From assembly GCA_002790835.1 (NCBI GenBank), contig PFVX01000041.1, positions 1 through 41,038 of the forward strand: 41,038 bases of DNA, written 5' to 3'. Below, piece by piece: positions 4,867 to 28,187 of this stretch. The stretch comes from a bacterium CG_4_9_14_3_um_filter_65_15. GTDB lineage: Bacteria > Krumholzibacteriota > Krumholzibacteriia > LZORAL124-64-63. Below the pieces are notes generated by a model. The model saw only the letters and a program-made list of their open reading frames with translations, ran no database searches and was not told the DNA's origin. A program made the position numbers and the translations under genes. Each line of letters begins with the position of its first letter. The stretch's first letter is position 1.

Positions 4867-5301
4867 CTAACCAACACCTTTCTTGAAAATGTATTCGACA
4901 GCGGGAGCCTGGTGCTTTAGCGGGGAATCGCCCCGGTCACCGGCGATCCGGCGCAAATCGTCCCGGAGATCCTCCAGATTGTCGGCGGTTTCCCGCAATC
5001 TCCCCAGGAGTTCCCCGTAGCCGGATGTTTGCGGAGCCGAGACGGCTGATGATTCCGCGGCGCGGTAGGCCCGGGCCTGGGCGTTTCCCAGGACGGTCGC
5101 AGGTTTCTGCACCCGTGCGACAGGGCTGTCGGCCTTCTGCGGCGGGCGTTGTTTGCGGCCTCGCCACTGCCTGCGCAGGTACAGGAATCCGACAACCACC
5201 AGGATGGTCAGACCGGCCGCCACGGCTGCGGCAGCCACCCAGAAAAGAGTGTCCTGTCCATTGAACAGGTTGCCTGCCTCTTTGATGACTTCCGAAGCCA
5301 T
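4867..5301 (-). CDS. Single-pass membrane protein in the SwrB position
   Basis: 144 residues with no family I recognise. One transmembrane helix lies at about residues 19-42 (TLFWVAAAAVAAGLTILVVV), followed by a basic stop-transfer stretch (RRQWRGRKQRPPQK), a flexible region, and a charged helix GRLRETADNLEDLRDDLRRI likely to form a coiled coil in the cytoplasm. In the Bacillus fla/che operon the gene next to the FliA homologue sigD is swrB, also an N-anchored cytoplasmic helical protein that assists export-apparatus activation. The topology and position match; sequence similarity is not evident to me. The ribosome site GGGAAGGG precedes the ATG. It is 14 bp from the upstream gene. Confidence 0.75.
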   Translation of the reverse strand: MASEVIKEAGNLFNGQDTLFWVAAAAVAAGLTILVVVGFLYLRRQWRGRKQRPPQKADSPVARVQKPATVLGNAQARAYRAAESSAVSAPQTSGYGELLGRLRETADNLEDLRDDLRRIAGDRGDSPLKHQAPAVEYIFKKGVG

Positions 5302-5684: not shown

Positions 5685-6653
5685 TTACGAGATGGGCCAA
5701 CCACCTCCGTGTCGTCCCAGCCAGGCCAGGTACCCGCAAAGCTGGCAAAGGCTGAACGCAGCCATGACGTTGATGGGTTCCAGGCTGGCCTTCACCTTTT
5801 CGGACACGGTGCCCACGGGCATCTTCTCCGGGGTGGGCTGCTTGTCGCGAATCTGCCGCGTCAACTGCCCGATGGAGGACTTGCCCTCGTTCCGGTCGAT
5901 CTTACCCTTGAGACGCAGGATGGCCTTGGTGTGGATCTGGCAGACGCGGCTCTCGGTCACGTCGAGGATTTCGCCGATTTCCTTCAGCGTGAGCTCCTCG
6001 TAATAGTAGAGCACCAGGACCAGCTGTTCCTTTTCCGGAAGCTCGGCAATGCGCTTGCCGATCAGATCCTTCATTTCCTGCTTCGCGAGTTCCTGCTCGA
6101 TGTTGTCGGCGGCAGGGTCGGCCAGGAATTCCACCAGGGCGGTGGAATTGTCGCTGTCGGAGGAATTGCTCTCCGCATCCAGGGACATGATGGTGGCGAC
6201 CGAGACCTCCCCCATCATCTCGTCCAGTTCCGGAAGTTCGATATCCAGTTCCTTGGCCACTTCGGCGTCGGTTGCCGGCCGCCCCAGACGCATCTCCAGG
6301 ATGGAGTACGCCTCCTCGAGTTGTTTGGCCTTGCGGCGCAGCGAACGGGGAAACCAATCCTGGCTCCGCAGTTCATCGAGGATCGAACCACGGATGCGCG
6401 GAATCGCGTAGGTCTCGAACTTGATCTGGCGCCCGGCGTCGAAATTGTCGATGGCCTGGATCAGACCCAGCAGACCTGCCGAGACCAGATCGTTGAATTC
6501 CACGTAGTGGGGCAGGCCGATCGCCATGCGTCCGGCCACATATTTCACAATGCGGGCGTAGATATCCACCAATTCGCAACGGGCGTTCTGACTGTCCTCG
6601 CCCGTCATGCGGTCCCAGATGTCGCTATGGGCGATTTGCAGGATCTCGGTCAT
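5685..6653 (-). CDS. fliA: Flagellar sigma factor FliA (sigma28) with a C-terminal extension
   Basis: 322 residues. Region 2 is clear (YVEFNDLVSAGLLGLIQAID and IKFETYAIPRIRGSILDELR, the FliA/WhiG signature), as is region 3 (FPRSLRRKAKQLEEAYSILE) and region 4.2 (LTLKEIGEILDVTESRVCQI, residues 221-240). FliA normally ends just after region 4.2, near residue 250. Here about 65 residues follow, ending in a hydrophobic, Cys-containing tail (SLCQLCGYLAWLG). FliA directs late flagellar genes and is held by FlgM, which is also present (37287-37658). A sigma54 promoter lies directly upstream (6692-6706). Confidence 0.95.
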   Translation of the reverse strand: MTEILQIAHSDIWDRMTGEDSQNARCELVDIYARIVKYVAGRMAIGLPHYVEFNDLVSAGLLGLIQAIDNFDAGRQIKFETYAIPRIRGSILDELRSQDWFPRSLRRKAKQLEEAYSILEMRLGRPATDAEVAKELDIELPELDEMMGEVSVATIMSLDAESNSSDSDNSTALVEFLADPAADNIEQELAKQEMKDLIGKRIAELPEKEQLVLVLYYYEELTLKEIGEILDVTESRVCQIHTKAILRLKGKIDRNEGKSSIGQLTRQIRDKQPTPEKMPVGTVSEKVKASLEPINVMAAFSLCQLCGYLAWLGRHGGGWPIS

Positions 6654-6721: not shown

Positions 6722-6946
6722 TCAGGACGCCTTTTTGCCCACGTGGGGGGACTTTTCCATGCCATCCTCCGGTTCGTGTCCCGCCGCCTGTAACGCCAGC
6801 ACGGCCAACGCCCCGAGGATGAAGATGGCCATGTAGGCCACCGCCATCTTTTTGAAGGTGACGTAGAGGGACCAGCCTTGCCAAAGGCCCACGCAAAGGA
6901 CCAGAAACGCTCCCAACAAGGCCATGGTCTGCAGGATGCGCTGCAT
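6722..6946 (-). CDS. Two-helix membrane protein in the slot normally held by flhG
   Basis: 74 residues, unknown family. Two predicted transmembrane segments (about 4-27, including MALLGAFLVLCVGLWQGW, and 34-53, AVAYMAIFILGALAVLALQA) are joined by a short VTFKKM loop. A polar, charged tail (EPEDGMEKSPHVGKKAS) follows. The ATG at 6946 starts one base after the TAG of the FlhF-like gene, and GGTGA lies 8-9 nt upstream, so the two are translationally linked. Most FlhF-encoding clusters have the MinD-like ATPase FlhG here. This protein shares nothing with FlhG. Function unknown; a membrane partner of the FlhF-like protein is a reasonable guess. Confidence 0.7.
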   Translation of the reverse strand: MQRILQTMALLGAFLVLCVGLWQGWSLYVTFKKMAVAYMAIFILGALAVLALQAAGHEPEDGMEKSPHVGKKAS

Positions 6947-6947
6947 G

Positions 6948-8069
6948 CTATCTTTCACCCCTTGCCGTTGCCTCAACCGCCGCCAATAGGGTAGCGGCGG
7001 CCAAGTCGGACCCCCCGCTCAGACGCGCAACCAGGTCGGCGGCCCGAGCAATCCTCACGCCACCTCCCTCCCGGTCGCTGACTCCATCGAGGGAGACGGG
7101 CAGGGAAATCAATTCCAACAGGTCCAGAATCTTGCCCTCGCGCTCGAAGCGGCGCGGCCGGGATACGGCCAACCAATCGCAGTTCCACGTGCGTGCCAGG
7201 TCCGCCCCGGTTCCCGCAGCCGGCAAATCCGTGCCCAGTGAGACCACCATGTGCCGATGGAACCCGGCGTTTGCGGCCAGCCAGGTCTGGAACTCGGGAA
7301 ATTCCCCGAGCACCGGATCATCCAGGTCCGGGAGTTCGAACAGCACCACGTCGTAGTCGCCGAAGTGCTCCTGGCAGCTTTGCAGTTGCCGGGGATGGCG
7401 AATGACCGCGGCGTCATATCCGTGACGGGAGGCTTCGGCCTGGACGCGCGCGATGGTCCCTTCGTGTTCGGGGAAGGCGACCAGCAGCAAGACCTCCCGG
7501 CCCAGTTCCCGGAATTGGGCGCAGGTCCGGAAGACCAGTTCCTGGCGTGCGTGTCGGTCGAAGCCCAGGAAGGCATGGGAGCCGTAGAAGCCGTCCCAAT
7601 CACACTCGGCCGCGGACAACTTGCCGGTCAGCCATTTCAGGAAGGCGTCACGTTCGGTCGGTTCCTGACCGGTTTCCGCCCGGTATCGATGGGTGAGGCG
7701 CAAAACGGTCTCCCGGCTCGTGCCGAGGGATTCCAGATAAGATGTCGCCGGGGACGAAACGGGCCCGTCTTCCCTGGCGTGCACCCGTTCGAGTTCCACC
7801 TGGACGTCGGCCACAAGGTTGTCGATGCGGTCAAGTTCCGCCTGGACGGCCTGGGCCGGGGGCCCCGCTTCCGGGCGCCGGTGGATCACGGGTTTGTTTC
7901 CTTGGCCTCCAGTGCCGGGTTCACCCACCGTCACTTCCACCATTTTCTTCGTTCCCAATCCGTTGCCCATGCGGACCGCAACGGTTCGCGTACCCTGGAT
8001 CACGGCGTTCTCGCCATGGACCAGGCGGACCTTTCGGTAGGCTTCCTTCAGCGAATAGCCCGTGATCAC
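6948..8069 (-). CDS. flhF: FlhF homologue lacking all GTPase motifs (pseudo-GTPase)
   Basis: 373 residues. The N-terminal B domain (1-48) is typical FlhF: TGYSLKEAYRKVRLVHGENA, then TRTV and LGTKKMVEVTV. A helical N domain follows (about 110-160). The expected NG GTPase core is present by length and strand pattern, but the P-loop GPTGVGKTT is replaced by GSHAFLGFDRHAR (about 163-175). The G3 DTAGR is replaced by ELPDLDD (244-250), and the G4 TKxD region reads AVSRPRRF (301-308). FlhF normally uses GTP-dependent dimerisation to place the flagellum at a pole. This one cannot bind GTP in the usual way. The GTG at 8069 gives the family N-terminus and follows the flhA stop by 13 bp; an ATG at 8117 would overlap flhA by 35 bp. 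Confidence 0.88.
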   Translation of the reverse strand: MITGYSLKEAYRKVRLVHGENAVIQGTRTVAVRMGNGLGTKKMVEVTVGEPGTGGQGNKPVIHRRPEAGPPAQAVQAELDRIDNLVADVQVELERVHAREDGPVSSPATSYLESLGTSRETVLRLTHRYRAETGQEPTERDAFLKWLTGKLSAAECDWDGFYGSHAFLGFDRHARQELVFRTCAQFRELGREVLLLVAFPEHEGTIARVQAEASRHGYDAAVIRHPRQLQSCQEHFGDYDVVLFELPDLDDPVLGEFPEFQTWLAANAGFHRHMVVSLGTDLPAAGTGADLARTWNCDWLAVSRPRRFEREGKILDLLELISLPVSLDGVSDREGGGVRIARAADLVARLSGGSDLAAATLLAAVEATARGER

Positions 8070-8082
8070 CCGCGGGTTCTCT

Positions 8083-10200
8083 TCAGCTTGCGGCCGTGAA
8101 TTCCTTGCCGTGAACATTGGTCACCACCGTTCCGGTTGAATGGACCTTGGCAGCCGAGGACACTTCCGTGTAACCCATGACCGCCAGGTTGGGATAAGTC
8201 GGCTCGACAAGCCGTTTGATGAACAGCCGCATGGGCGTCGGCACCAGCAGCACCGGTGGGGTGCCTGCGGCGTACGCCGCCCGCAAGTGGCCCTCGATCT
8301 GGGACAGGAAGTCCCGCGTGAAGGCCGGATCCAGGACCACACCCTGGGCCTGTTCGCTTTGACGCGCCGCCTCCAGGAGGGTCTGTTCCGTGCCCGGATG
8401 CAGGGAGATCACGTGCAGGCTGCCGTCGCTCTCGCAGTGCAGGGCCGTGATGGAACGGGCCAGGGATTCACGCACCTTTCCGCACATGAAATCCGCCCCC
8501 ATGCCCGTGCCGCTGTAGTTGGCCAGGGTCTCCAGGATGGTCACGATGTCGCGCACCGGAATGCGCTCATGCAGCAGGGCCTTGAGCACGTTGTGCAGGG
8601 TGTTGACCGGGACCTTGTCCGGCACCAGATCCTCGATGAGGGCCGGAGCGAAATCCCGGACCGACTCGCACATGTCCTTGATGTCCTGGCGGCTGAGCAA
8701 CTCGTCGGCGTGACTGCGGATGATTTCCGAGAGGTGCGTCGCCAGCACGGCCGCCGGTTCGACCACCGTGTAGCCCTGGTGCTCGGCGTGGCTCTTGTCG
8801 TCCGGGTCGATCCACACCGCCGGCAGGTTGAAGGCGGGCTCCGTGGTGGCCTCACCCGTGAGTTCCCCCGCATCGGGCTGGGTGCTCATGGCCAGCAGTT
8901 TTTCCGGCACCAGCCTGGAGCGACCGATTTCCACGCCCTTGAGTTTGATCACGTAATCCTGTGCCCCCAGCTGGAGGTTGTCGCGCACGCGGATGGGGTG
9001 GATGAAGATCCCGAGTTCCGAGCCCACCTGCCGCCTGATGTTCCCCACCCGGTGGAGCAGGTCACCGCCACGGGCATCGTCGACCAGGGGAATCAGGCCG
9101 TAGCCGATCTCCAGTTCCAGGCGGTCCAGGACGAAAAGGTCTTCGCCCCTGAGTCCTTCGGGCTCCGCGACCCCTTCTTCCTCGGCCTGGCGAGCCTGAT
9201 CCTCGGCCTCCTCCATGTTGTCGTCGTACTTCTTCACCCGGCGGCTCATGACGGCCCCCGTCACCGCCGTGGCGACGGCGAAGAAAAGGAACGGTCCGGT
9301 CGGCAACCCCGGAATCAGGCCCAGAACCATGATGGCGCCGGCGGCCAGGTACAGGGCCTTGGCTTGCCTGAAGATCTGCAGGGTGACCGCCTGGCCCAGG
9401 TTCAGCGAACCGCTGGTCCGGGTGACGACGAGACCGGCACTGGTGGAAATCAAGAGGGCCGGAATCTGGCTCACCAAACCGTCACCAACGGTCAGCACGG
9501 TAAAGCGGGCCAGGGCTTCATGTGCCGTCATGCCCATCTGCAGCATGCCGATGATGAAACCGGCGGCGATGTTCACCACGGTGATCAGGATCCCCGCCAT
9601 GGCGTCGCCCTTGACGAACTTGCTGGCACCGTCCATGGCCCCGAAGAACTCGGCCTCGCGCGCGATCTCATCGCGGCGGTCCCGTGCCTGCTTCTCGTTG
9701 ATCAACCCGGTATTGAGGTCCGCGTCGATGGCCATCTGCTTGCCGGGCATCGCGTCCAGGGTGAATCGCGCAGCAACCTCGGCGATACGCCCGCTACCCT
9801 TGGTGATGACCATGAAATTGATGATGACCAGAATGATGAAGACGATGACGCCGATGACGTAGTTCCCCCCGACCACGAAATCTCCGAAGCTCTCGATGAC
9901 CTGCCCGGCGGAGCCCTTGCTCAGGATCAGTCGGGTCGACGCCACGTTCAGTGACAGACGCATGAGAGTCAGGATCAACAGGAGGGAGGGAAAGCTGTTG
10001 AACTGAAGGGGTTCCTTGAGATAGAGCGAAACCAGGAGCACGGTCACCGAGAAGGCGATGCTGAACGTGAGCATGAGGTCCATGAGGATCGGCGGTACGG
10101 GTACCACCATGAGGCCCAGGACCATCATGACCGCCACCGCGCTCAGGATGTTGCTGTTCGCCAGGACCAGATCCCGATCAATTACACTCTCATGCTCCAC
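8083..10200 (-). CDS. flhA: Flagellar export gate protein FlhA
   Basis: 705 residues, a usual length. About eight transmembrane segments occupy residues 15-315, including the conserved FHIPEP-family block FPSLLLILTLMRLSLNVAST and the cytoplasmic loop with DAMPGKQMAIDADLNTGLI. A linker leads to the large C-terminal cytoplasmic domain (about 360-705) that docks chaperone-substrate complexes. FlhA forms the nonameric ring of the type III export gate in the inner membrane. The start is GTG (VEHESV), preceded by AGAAGGA. It follows flhB by 20 bp and is followed by the FlhF-like gene. Confidence 0.97.
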   Translation of the reverse strand: MEHESVIDRDLVLANSNILSAVAVMMVLGLMVVPVPPILMDLMLTFSIAFSVTVLLVSLYLKEPLQFNSFPSLLLILTLMRLSLNVASTRLILSKGSAGQVIESFGDFVVGGNYVIGVIVFIILVIINFMVITKGSGRIAEVAARFTLDAMPGKQMAIDADLNTGLINEKQARDRRDEIAREAEFFGAMDGASKFVKGDAMAGILITVVNIAAGFIIGMLQMGMTAHEALARFTVLTVGDGLVSQIPALLISTSAGLVVTRTSGSLNLGQAVTLQIFRQAKALYLAAGAIMVLGLIPGLPTGPFLFFAVATAVTGAVMSRRVKKYDDNMEEAEDQARQAEEEGVAEPEGLRGEDLFVLDRLELEIGYGLIPLVDDARGGDLLHRVGNIRRQVGSELGIFIHPIRVRDNLQLGAQDYVIKLKGVEIGRSRLVPEKLLAMSTQPDAGELTGEATTEPAFNLPAVWIDPDDKSHAEHQGYTVVEPAAVLATHLSEIIRSHADELLSRQDIKDMCESVRDFAPALIEDLVPDKVPVNTLHNVLKALLHERIPVRDIVTILETLANYSGTGMGADFMCGKVRESLARSITALHCESDGSLHVISLHPGTEQTLLEAARQSEQAQGVVLDPAFTRDFLSQIEGHLRAAYAAGTPPVLLVPTPMRLFIKRLVEPTYPNLAVMGYTEVSSAAKVHSTGTVVTNVHGKEFTAAS

Positions 10201-24851: not shown

Positions 24852-25653
24852 CGTCTTCTCCGGAGGGGTTGGCAGGAACCGGGGGCTGCTCCGTATCGGG
24901 AGCCTCACCGGTGAAGGGGATGTCGAGGGAACCGGCGGCGCCCCGTGGTGAAACGGCCACCTGGTCCCGGATCAGCCGGGCCATGGCCTCGAGTTGGCCT
25001 GACAAGGTCGCGTCCCATTCCCGACCCCCGGCTTCAACCTGACAACCGCCTCTTTCGATGCGTCTGTCCGCGTGAATGTGCCCGATGTTCAAGCGGGAAA
25101 TTGCTTCGGGGTTCAATTCAAGGAATTCGGCGTCCTCGGGGTTGACCGTGAGATTCATGGGGTGTCCGGTAGGAACCTTGTGCAAGGTCGCCTCCAGGGC
25201 CCGGATCAGGGTCTCGGGGTCGCGTTCGACATCCGCCCGCAAAATTTTGTGGGCGAGTTGAATCGAGAATTCCACGCAGGCGGTGGCCAGATCCCGAAAT
25301 TCGTCATTGACCGCCGTCTGGAACGAACCGGCCCAGGCAGCCAGGTCCTGCTTTTGCGCTTCGAGTCGAGCGGCGAACGCCTCTTCCTGCGCCTTGAATT
25401 TGGCCTCGTATTCCCCGGCCACATCAACTTCGACGAGTTCGAAAACGGTGGCCCGTTCCTCGCGGGTCAGATGCGACATCAGGGCATCGTCGGTGGCGAA
25501 CCCGGCTTCCCGGCGAAACCGGGAATGTCCTCCGGCAGCCGCTTCTGTGGCCCCGACGACTTCCTGGGGAAAGAATTCGACCGCCGCGCCGGCTGCGCCG
25601 ACGACGACCTTGCCGGGTTCGGGGGCAAACGAATCAGGAGACCATTTCTGCAT
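24832..25653 (-). CDS. fliH: Flagellar export ATPase regulator FliH
   Basis: 273 residues. The N-terminus (1-60) is variable. A charged coiled coil (about 65-110, EYEAKFKAQEEAFAARLEAQ) leads into the conserved domain (115-225: ATACVEFSIQLAHKILRADV, NPEAISRLNIGHIHADRRIE, GGCQVEAGGREWDATL). FliH holds FliI and links it to FliN. It overlaps fliG by 20 bp and fliI by 20 bp, so fliG-fliH-fliI are translationally chained. The acidic, Pro-rich C-terminal tail (about 235-273) is unusual. Confidence 0.92.
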   Translation of the reverse strand: MQKWSPDSFAPEPGKVVVGAAGAAVEFFPQEVVGATEAAAGGHSRFRREAGFATDDALMSHLTREERATVFELVEVDVAGEYEAKFKAQEEAFAARLEAQKQDLAAWAGSFQTAVNDEFRDLATACVEFSIQLAHKILRADVERDPETLIRALEATLHKVPTGHPMNLTVNPEDAEFLELNPEAISRLNIGHIHADRRIERGGCQVEAGGREWDATLSGQLEAMARLIRDQVAVSPRGAAGSLDIPFTGEAPDTEQPPVPANPSGEDDAADLG

Positions 25654-26635
25654 CTTTGCCGCCCTTGCCGAGGGTGATGGTTCCTGCTTCCTCCAGACTC
25701 CGGATCACTTCGACGATCCGTTGCTGGGCCTCCTCGACTTCGGACAAACGCACCGGTCCCATGTACTCCATGTCCTCGGCGATCCCTTCGGCCGCCCGTT
25801 TGGACATGTTCCCGAAGATGCGACCACGGATCTCGTCGGTCGCGCCCTTGAGGGCCATGGTCAATTCCTTGCCGTCGATCTCCTTGAGAATCTCCTGGAT
25901 GCTGGCATCGCTGAGGGTGACCACGTCATCGAAGATGAACATCAGGTTGTTGACCTCGTTGGCCACCTCGTCGTCGATTTCCCGCATCTCATCGAGGATC
26001 TCCTGCCAGACCTCGCGCTCGATTTCGTTCAGGATTTCGGCCACCTGTTTCTTGCCGCCGTACTTCGTCTCCCGCGCGCTGATCTCACCTTGAAGCTGGC
26101 CGGCCAGGACCTTCTCCACTTCCTTGAGCGTCTCCGGATTGGGGGCCTCCAGCACGGCCATGCGATGGGCAACGTCCCCCTGGAGTTCCGCCGGAAGCAG
26201 AGCCAGGATCGGACCGCTGCCGCGGGGATCCATGTGGGCCAGGACCACGGCGATGGTCTGGGGGTGTTCGTTCTTGAGATAGTTGGCGATGGTCAGGGAA
26301 TCGACGTTCTTCAGGTGTTCGAAGCTCTTGATTTCGCTGTAGCTCGTCACGCGGCTCAGCATGGAGCTTGCCGCATGGGAGCCGAATCCCGCCTCCAGGA
26401 TCTGCTTGGCCGCTTCCTCTCCGCCAAAGGCGATCCCGCTGATCCGGCTGCTCAAGGCGATGAAATCGCTGAGGACGGCCTTCTTCTCCTTGTAGGTCAC
26501 TTGCCCGATGCTCGCGATTTCGTGAGTGATCTCCTCCACGATGGTCTGGGGCAGTTTCGACATGACTTTTCCCGCCACATCGGGGCCCAGGGCCATGAGG
26601 AAGACCGACGCCTTGCGCAGGTAATCCGGTTGCAT
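25634..26635 (-). CDS. fliG: Flagellar motor switch protein FliG
   Basis: 333 residues, the standard length. The N-terminal domain (LRKASVFLMALGPDVAGKVM) binds FliF; the C-terminal torque domain has FIFDDVVTLSDASIQEILKE, ELTMALKGATDEIRGRIFGN and MSKRAAEGIAEDMEYMGPVR. The ATG at 26635 overlaps the end of fliF by context (TGACATG) with GAGGAGA upstream; a longer frame to 26734 lies inside fliF and is not used. Confidence 0.97.
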   Translation of the reverse strand: MQPDYLRKASVFLMALGPDVAGKVMSKLPQTIVEEITHEIASIGQVTYKEKKAVLSDFIALSSRISGIAFGGEEAAKQILEAGFGSHAASSMLSRVTSYSEIKSFEHLKNVDSLTIANYLKNEHPQTIAVVLAHMDPRGSGPILALLPAELQGDVAHRMAVLEAPNPETLKEVEKVLAGQLQGEISARETKYGGKKQVAEILNEIEREVWQEILDEMREIDDEVANEVNNLMFIFDDVVTLSDASIQEILKEIDGKELTMALKGATDEIRGRIFGNMSKRAAEGIAEDMEYMGPVRLSEVEEAQQRIVEVIRSLEEAGTITLGKGGKDAEMVS

Positions 26636-26636
26636 G

Positions 26637-28187
26637 TCAGTCTCCTCGGGCCTGCATGGCCAAGTCAGCGGGATTGATCCCGTGGACCCAGGACTGGATG
26701 ACCTCGGCCACCCTTTCCGGGTTTTCCGAGGCAAAATCCTGAATGTCAGAGATCACCTGGTCGTTGAATTCGGGGATCCCGTCAAAGTGTTCGGCTTCGA
26801 CCTCCAGGTCGGATGCCCCGCCTCTGGCCCCGGCTGCAGCCACGGACTTCTTGCCGACCGCCGTCAGACTTCCACCCGCTAGCAGCGCGTTGAGGTTCTT
26901 GCGCAGGACCAGCACCATGACGCCCAACATGATCACCAACACGACCTTGCCGCCGTACTGCGTCACCACTCCGACGAGGTCCAAAGGAGTGCCCTGGACC
27001 GCCGGCAATTCCGGGGGGGCCTGGAACTGCATGTTGGCGACTTCCACGCGATCGCCGCGGGAAGCGTCCACGCCCACAGCCAACTCCACGTTGCGTTTCA
27101 GCATGGCCAGGTCGTCGTCACCCAACGGCGTGTAGATCGGGTCCCCGCCCTCGGGGTCGGCCGCGTAGTTGCCGTCCACAAACACGGCCACCGAAAGCTT
27201 TTCCAGACCGCCGGTCGGGGACACCACGTGTTCGACCGTCTTGTTGATCTCGTAGTTGGTCGTGCTCTCTTCGCTGGTCTCACCCGACGAAGGAACAGTG
27301 CTCTCGGTCCGCACTTCGCTGCGCACGACGGTGGAGGCCGGATCGTAGATTTCCCGTTGACTATCGATCTTCTCGAAATTCAGGGTGGCGTCGACCTTGA
27401 CGATGGAGCGGCCCGGTCCCAGGACTCGGTCAAGCATGCTGGATGCCTTCTCCGCCAGGTGTCCCTCGACCTCCTTGCGCAAGGCCAACTGCGTCTCGCT
27501 CCGTCCCACGTCGTCGTCACGGGCTGTGCTGGACAGGACCTCTCCCGCCTGATCCAGTACCGTCACGTTCTCGGCCGTCAGGTTCTCAACCGCCCCGGCC
27601 ACCAGGTTCTGGATGCCGGTGATCTGATGCGCGGCCACACCATTGCCGCGGGCCAGGGTCAGCACCACGCTCGCGGTGGGCTCGGCCGCAAGCCTCTTGA
27701 ACATCGAAGGCTTCGGCAACGACAGATGGACACGCGCGGCCCGGATGCCCTGCAGGGATTCGATCGTCTGGGTCAGTTCCCCTTCCAGGGCCCGCTTGAA
27801 ATTCACGTTCTGCAGGAACTCCGTCATCCCGTACTGGTTGCTGTCGAATACCTCGAATCCCACGGTCCCGGACGAGGGCATGCCCTTGGCGGCCAGGTCG
27901 AGCCGCAGTCGGTCCTTCATGGCGCTGGGCACGAGGATGGTCGTGCCGCCGTTCTGCAGTTCCGTGGGGACATCCTGCTTGGCGAGTTCCTGAAGGGCGG
28001 ACGAGGCGTCCTCGGGGCTCATGTTGGTGAACAGAACGGCCATTTCGTCGTTCTGGAGCCACATGGAGAACACCAACAGGCAGACTACCGTGGCAGCTCC
28101 CACGGCACCCAGGATGATCTTCTGGCTGAAGGACATGCCGTTGAAGCGCACGCCCAGGCTGTCGAGTGTCTGTTTGAATCCGTTCAC
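26637..28187 (-). CDS. fliF: Flagellar MS-ring protein FliF
   Basis: 516 residues. The first membrane helix is at about 24-44 (IILGAVGAATVVCLLVFSMW). The ring-building motifs include MSPEDASSALQELAKQDVPT, GTVGFEVFDSNQYGMTEFLQ and NVNFKRALEGELTQTIESLQ. The second helix is at about 410-428 (GGKVVLVIMLGVMVLVL), and the C-terminal FliG-binding tail contains NPERVAEVIQSWV. The start is GTG with GAGAGG upstream. It forms the MS ring on which rod, C-ring and export gate assemble. Confidence 0.96.
   Translation of the reverse strand: MNGFKQTLDSLGVRFNGMSFSQKIILGAVGAATVVCLLVFSMWLQNDEMAVLFTNMSPEDASSALQELAKQDVPTELQNGGTTILVPSAMKDRLRLDLAAKGMPSSGTVGFEVFDSNQYGMTEFLQNVNFKRALEGELTQTIESLQGIRAARVHLSLPKPSMFKRLAAEPTASVVLTLARGNGVAAHQITGIQNLVAGAVENLTAENVTVLDQAGEVLSSTARDDDVGRSETQLALRKEVEGHLAEKASSMLDRVLGPGRSIVKVDATLNFEKIDSQREIYDPASTVVRSEVRTESTVPSSGETSEESTTNYEINKTVEHVVSPTGGLEKLSVAVFVDGNYAADPEGGDPIYTPLGDDDLAMLKRNVELAVGVDASRGDRVEVANMQFQAPPELPAVQGTPLDLVGVVTQYGGKVVLVIMLGVMVLVLRKNLNALLAGGSLTAVGKKSVAAAGARGGASDLEVEAEHFDGIPEFNDQVISDIQDFASENPERVAEVIQSWVHGINPADLAMQARGD

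Follow-up and report, generated by a model that had tools for sequence, protein, structure and literature searches.

The flhF gene described here, from a 95% complete genome of the little-known, uncultured phylum Ca. Krumholzibacteriota, probably encodes an FlhF orthologue that has become a pseudo-GTPase, with a function that we infer to be that of a nucleotide-independent FliG-FliF tether left after the loss of FlhG. The gene has been kept despite its losses and so probably works as a simple tether. FlhF normally uses GTP to set the site at which a flagellum is built, and the usual gene order is flhA-flhF-flhG-fliA. The window (the whole stretch of 41,038 nucleotides that was analysed) is a flagellar cluster with fliF, G, H, I, J, K, motA/B, fliL, M, N, P, Q and R, together with flhB, flhA, flhF, fliA, two HDOD genes (named by reading their sequences) and a sigma-54 activator. 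Within it, flhF is flanked by flhA and fliA, a small membrane-protein gene lying directly 3' of flhF and before fliA (Table 1). The likely start of flhF is the ATG at 8117, since it gives an overlap with the 3' end of flhA, and since the additional N-terminal residues align with those of relatives; it replaces the start at 8069 given in the original prediction, which is an internal GTG.

Table 1. Features of the flhF gene, its product and associated genes in the window
Feature	Coordinates	Strand	Basis
FlhF-derived pseudo-GTPase, 389 aa	6948..8117	minus	ORF; FlhF TIGR03499 on residues 17-65; PDB FlhF by family profile; fold
FliG-interaction domain (FID), residues 16-66, beta-alpha-beta-beta	7920..8072	minus	N-terminal profile match to 9EN1; model
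Variable linker, residues 67-118	7764..7919	minus	partly low pLDDT; 37-38% identity within genus
NG domain (N ~119-175, G ~176-350)	7068..7763	minus	Foldseek: 8R9R TMt 0.77, 2PX3 TMt 0.76
Former P-loop: GFDRHARQ replaces GxxGxGKT	7542..7565	minus	alignment
Former DTYR (G2): PEHEG	7458..7472	minus	alignment
Former DTAG (G3): ELPD	7326..7337	minus	alignment
Former TKxD (G4): SRPR	7152..7163	minus	alignment
flhA	8083..10200	minus	TIGR01398, 850.8 bits
Small two-helix membrane protein in usual flhG slot	6722..6946	minus	helices judged by eye
fliA (sigma-28)	5685..6653	minus	TIGR02479, 266 bits
fliG, proposed binding partner	25634..26734	minus	FliG_N, FliG_M, FliG_C
fliF, proposed indirect cargo	26637..28187	minus	YscJ_FliF, YscJ_FliF_C

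Taken singly, the protein matched no Pfam family and found nothing relevant in the PDB with phmmer, so that profiles were required; its sole family match was to NCBIfam FlhF, at 36.7 bits against a cut-off of 174.15. The best solved relative of the family profile was FlhF of B. subtilis (2PX0, E 1e-8), with the match running through both the N and the G domain. When the profile was built from the N-terminal 60 residues, it had one significant match in the PDB, the FID of FlhF (9EN1, E 2e-4; the next chain was at 0.17), which bears out the claim of the original prediction that this is an FlhF homologue with its N-terminal domain kept. The AlphaFold2 model (mean pLDDT 84, mostly >90 in the NG region) was laid out as an FID-like unit (E16-20, H23-34, E39-49, E56-65), a linker and an NG fold. 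Foldseek matched the NG part to SRP GTPases, and the top target-normalised TM scores among the matches listed were those of FlhF structures; a relative with a P-loop (L059) had the same predicted fold, with 8R9R and 2PX0 ranked top. The NG layout thus survives as had been claimed, and a fold unrelated to the SRP GTPase domain, which would have spoken against that claim, was not what the model gave. By its FID, predicted NG fold and place beside flhA, the krumholzibacterial gene is, on sequence and model, an orthologue of FlhF by descent. Ffh and FtsY share the NG fold, but both occur as separate intact copies in the source genome and neither has an FID.

All four GTP motifs have been replaced, as originally claimed. 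Their positions were taken from an alignment of PDB FlhF sequences, including 2PX0, to the profile of the family, and the letters read earlier were found at the expected sites: GSHAFLGFDRHARQEL (residues 179-194) at the P-loop, ELPDLDD (261-267) at DTAG and LAVSRPRRF (316-324) at TKxD. The former P-loop retains neither of its inner glycines, nor the lysine or the Ser/Thr, and the loop is also gone in the two congeners that have the region, the three loops reading FDRHARQ, YARPQRL and ADRSVRQ. The loss is not an assembly effect, since the GTP motifs of the Ffh and FtsY encoded by the source genome are perfect; chance or sequencing error is likewise excluded by an in-frame ORF, a gene order shared by about 50 genomes and a loss shared by congeners. 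Set against FlhF (TIGR03499; 2PX0, 2PX3, 8R9R; FID 9EN1), this protein has the FID, linker, NG fold and place after flhA but not what marks the FlhF GTPase as a functional family, that is, the P-loop, DTYR, DTAG, TKxD and a score at the TIGR03499 cut-off (36.7 bits vs 174); no FlhG partner with DQAxxLR was found.

A rebuilt switch, binding a nucleotide or another ligand at a non-canonical site (the lysine replaced by arginine; newly conserved G-x-H and P-x-H-x-G residues), would account for the retention of GxGR[ST] plus the remaining loop in many relatives and for the conserved flanking residues G179, H181 and P216. We consider it unlikely, as the source genus has kept none of the key P-loop residues (both inner glycines, lysine, Ser/Thr) and has lost the D of TKxD as well, and no two of the three congeners share a loop sequence.

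The original prediction depended on there being no second intact flhF plus flhG elsewhere in the genome, and neither was found. The two matches to FlhF in the source genome that scored higher were FtsY and Ffh, whose motifs are intact. The ParA-like proteins encoded there (one beside ParB, one with a glycogen-binding-like fusion, two others, and Mrp) were considered as FlhG and rejected. In 58 relatives an FlhG query (PDB 4RZ2) gave only low scores (<=62 bits), where a true FlhG, FleN, scored 139 bits with a related query; the best 20 matches were read, and all were Mrp-type or similar, none with DQAxxLR. The genomes all appear to be metagenome assemblies, so that absence from a single genome is weak evidence, yet it was consistent across dozens. 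The missing FlhG had been tied to this lineage in particular; its absence from the source genome stands, but the tie does not, as FlhG went undetected in 58/58 relatives, including those with an intact P-loop, for which reason FlhG loss is probably older than P-loop loss. As a separate observation, L076:1444-2571 encodes a ParA-type ATPase with a C-terminal domain that, judged by eye, resembles a glycogen-binding (AMPK-like) module.

The survey of FlhF covered this phylum. Among 80 genomes, flhA was present in 51 and the FlhF orthologue in 51, with both in 48 and neither in 26 (co-occurrence 48/51, Fisher p 1.5e-14). Of the exceptions, three were genomes with flhA fragments only, one fell at a contig edge and two belonged to family f2. 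The order of the flhF neighbourhood was constant throughout the relatives, and no genome of the phylum passed the NCBIfam FlhF cut-off. The two f2 genomes, which are without flhA, encode an NG domain that resembles that of FlhF and has its P-loop intact, but no recognisable FID (L118:6353-7765 and L119:5146-6177), each gene adjoining sigma-54 activator-like genes; these proteins are possibly a flagellum-free descendant of FlhF.

The original prediction proposed checking whether the P-loop is absent from all homologues, and it is not. Families f2, f3 and f7 have its lysine intact, as do the early branches of f1 and parts of f4 and f5. Most of f1 has arginine instead, as do some members of f4 and f5, and three groups (the source genus, g12 and g7) have lost the loop. 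Neither DTYR nor DTAG was found in any orthologue with those columns filled, including those with a perfect P-loop, which places their loss first. The D of TKxD was kept in 40/52 sequences. On a tree of FlhA (short search, SH-aLRT only, midpoint root), which is independent because the FlhF sequence was not used in it, the four P-loop states required 8 changes, among them about three losses and several replacements of lysine by arginine; the well-supported branches force two losses rather than three, as part of the branching within f1 is not settled by the tree. Outside this phylum the P-loop is general in FlhF, and the direction of loss was set by that. Outside f1, among L067 and L072 (f4) and L064 and L065 (f5), there were independent lysine-to-arginine changes and, in L065, a loop reading GxxGSAKT; this is convergent erosion of the same loop.

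The other part of that check, purifying selection on the gene, was borne out by dN/dS (Nei-Gojobori). Values for flhF among congeners of the source genus were ~0.3-0.46, with ~0.16-0.23 in the FID, ~0.22-0.27 in the G domain and higher values in the N domain and linker, all of them rough because dS between congeners is near saturation. Values in other lineages were ~0.1-0.3, and P-loop-free pairs of g12 and g7 gave ~0.1-0.2. By these estimates the gene is under purifying selection, most strongly in the FID. The dN of FlhF was 4-5 times that of FlhA in the source genus vs ~2.3-3.3 times in other lineages, so that relative to flhA the gene evolves ~1.5 times faster there, which suggests some relaxation without lost constraint. 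This relaxed rate, together with the fast divergence of the N domain and linker, is what a slow decay would produce, in which FlhF has become superfluous to the flagellum, the gene is on its way out and the remnant is functionless. Such decay is nevertheless improbable given an open frame at the same place in ~50 deeply diverged genomes, dN/dS well below 1 and lowest in the FID, a confidently predicted fold and co-occurrence with flhA.

The original prediction had also suggested that the protein serves FliA or the export neighbourhood as a scaffold, and flhF does sit between flhA and fliA, as FlhF usually does. That position goes back by inheritance to the ordinary flhA-flhF-flhG-fliA order, however, and the best-conserved part of the protein is its FliG-binding domain, which points instead to FliG and the basal body. 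Family f3 moreover keeps flhF though fliA was not found there (between the small membrane-protein and HDOD genes, fliA was not found in f3 and f7: L070, L068, L120-L123). A scaffolding role towards FliA or the export gate is therefore very unlikely in our view.

In each of the flagellated families sampled, the gene for the small membrane protein lies directly 3' of flhF; the protein had no convincing match in Pfam and is, speculatively, a candidate FlhF anchor. In gammaproteobacteria the FlhF anchor is FipA (DUF2802) (PMC11620751). Downstream of fliA, the gene at 4867-5301 encodes a 144-aa protein that, like FipA, has one N-terminal membrane helix and follows the flhF-fliA genes; it was rejected as FipA, as neither it nor its relatives matched DUF2802 at permissive thresholds, and no DUF2802/FipA was found in the source genome. 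Proteins at this position in f3 and f7 end in an LRLYMHVG-like sequence. A search for FimV gave no match in the source genome and none in any control genome.

We propose that the phylum ancestor lost FlhG, upon which the hydrolysis residues would have become dispensable and been lost first. The P-loop lysine would have followed, with arginine in several lineages, and nucleotide binding would have gone last, in about three lineages including the source genus. The outcome would be a constitutive tether in which the FID holds FliG, and FliF through FliG, while the NG domain, free of nucleotide, attaches to an anchor at the pole or in the membrane; competition or protein level, not a GTP/FlhG cycle, would govern how FliG is released to FliM/FliN. 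Dimerisation of known FlhFs is GTP-dependent, so dimerisation as well as FliG release would have to differ in this protein.

Known FlhFs provide precedents on both sides. In Shewanella the FID by itself binds FliG, the bound FliG can still meet FliF but not FliM/FliN, and NG-HubP binding is independent of nucleotide (PMC11236974). The Vibrio FlhF catalytic mutant R334A has normal flagella (PMC6092412), so a hydrolysis-free FlhF can still place a flagellum; the loss described here differs in being natural and fixed and in extending to the nucleotide-binding loop. Together these data make a switch-free tether mechanically possible, requiring only an FID, a linker and an NG surface. GTP-free function is, however, not expected from precedent, as GTP-binding mutants are impaired (in V. 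alginolyticus K305A is reduced and T306A and D439A are aflagellate, as cited in PMC6092412) and GDP destabilises the FlhF-FliG complex of P. aeruginosa (PMC12713375). FlhG-stimulated hydrolysis is thought to drive FliG release (PMC12826062). GTP-independent flagellar placement, as inferred in the original prediction, is plausible as a hypothesis.

More broadly, we suggest tentatively, at a little under an even chance, that the whole phylum places its flagella with an FlhG-less FlhF which in several lineages is a GTP-free tether, perhaps anchored by the membrane protein in the flhG slot. Our search of the literature found no report of an FlhF of this kind, and a 2025 review describes FlhF flagellar placement and the contribution of the GTP cycle as incompletely understood (PMC12826062). 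Mutants suggest that hydrolysis is dispensable and binding indispensable. The order of losses (first FlhG and the hydrolysis motifs, next the lysine of the P-loop, and last the remainder) is that expected if the switch mainly serves FlhG. If the phylum-wide reading is true, GTP binding by FlhF would not be universally required. The natural series from P-loop-bearing to P-loop-free proteins, in the same neighbourhood and with no FlhG found, separates tethering from switching and supplies proteins for testing.
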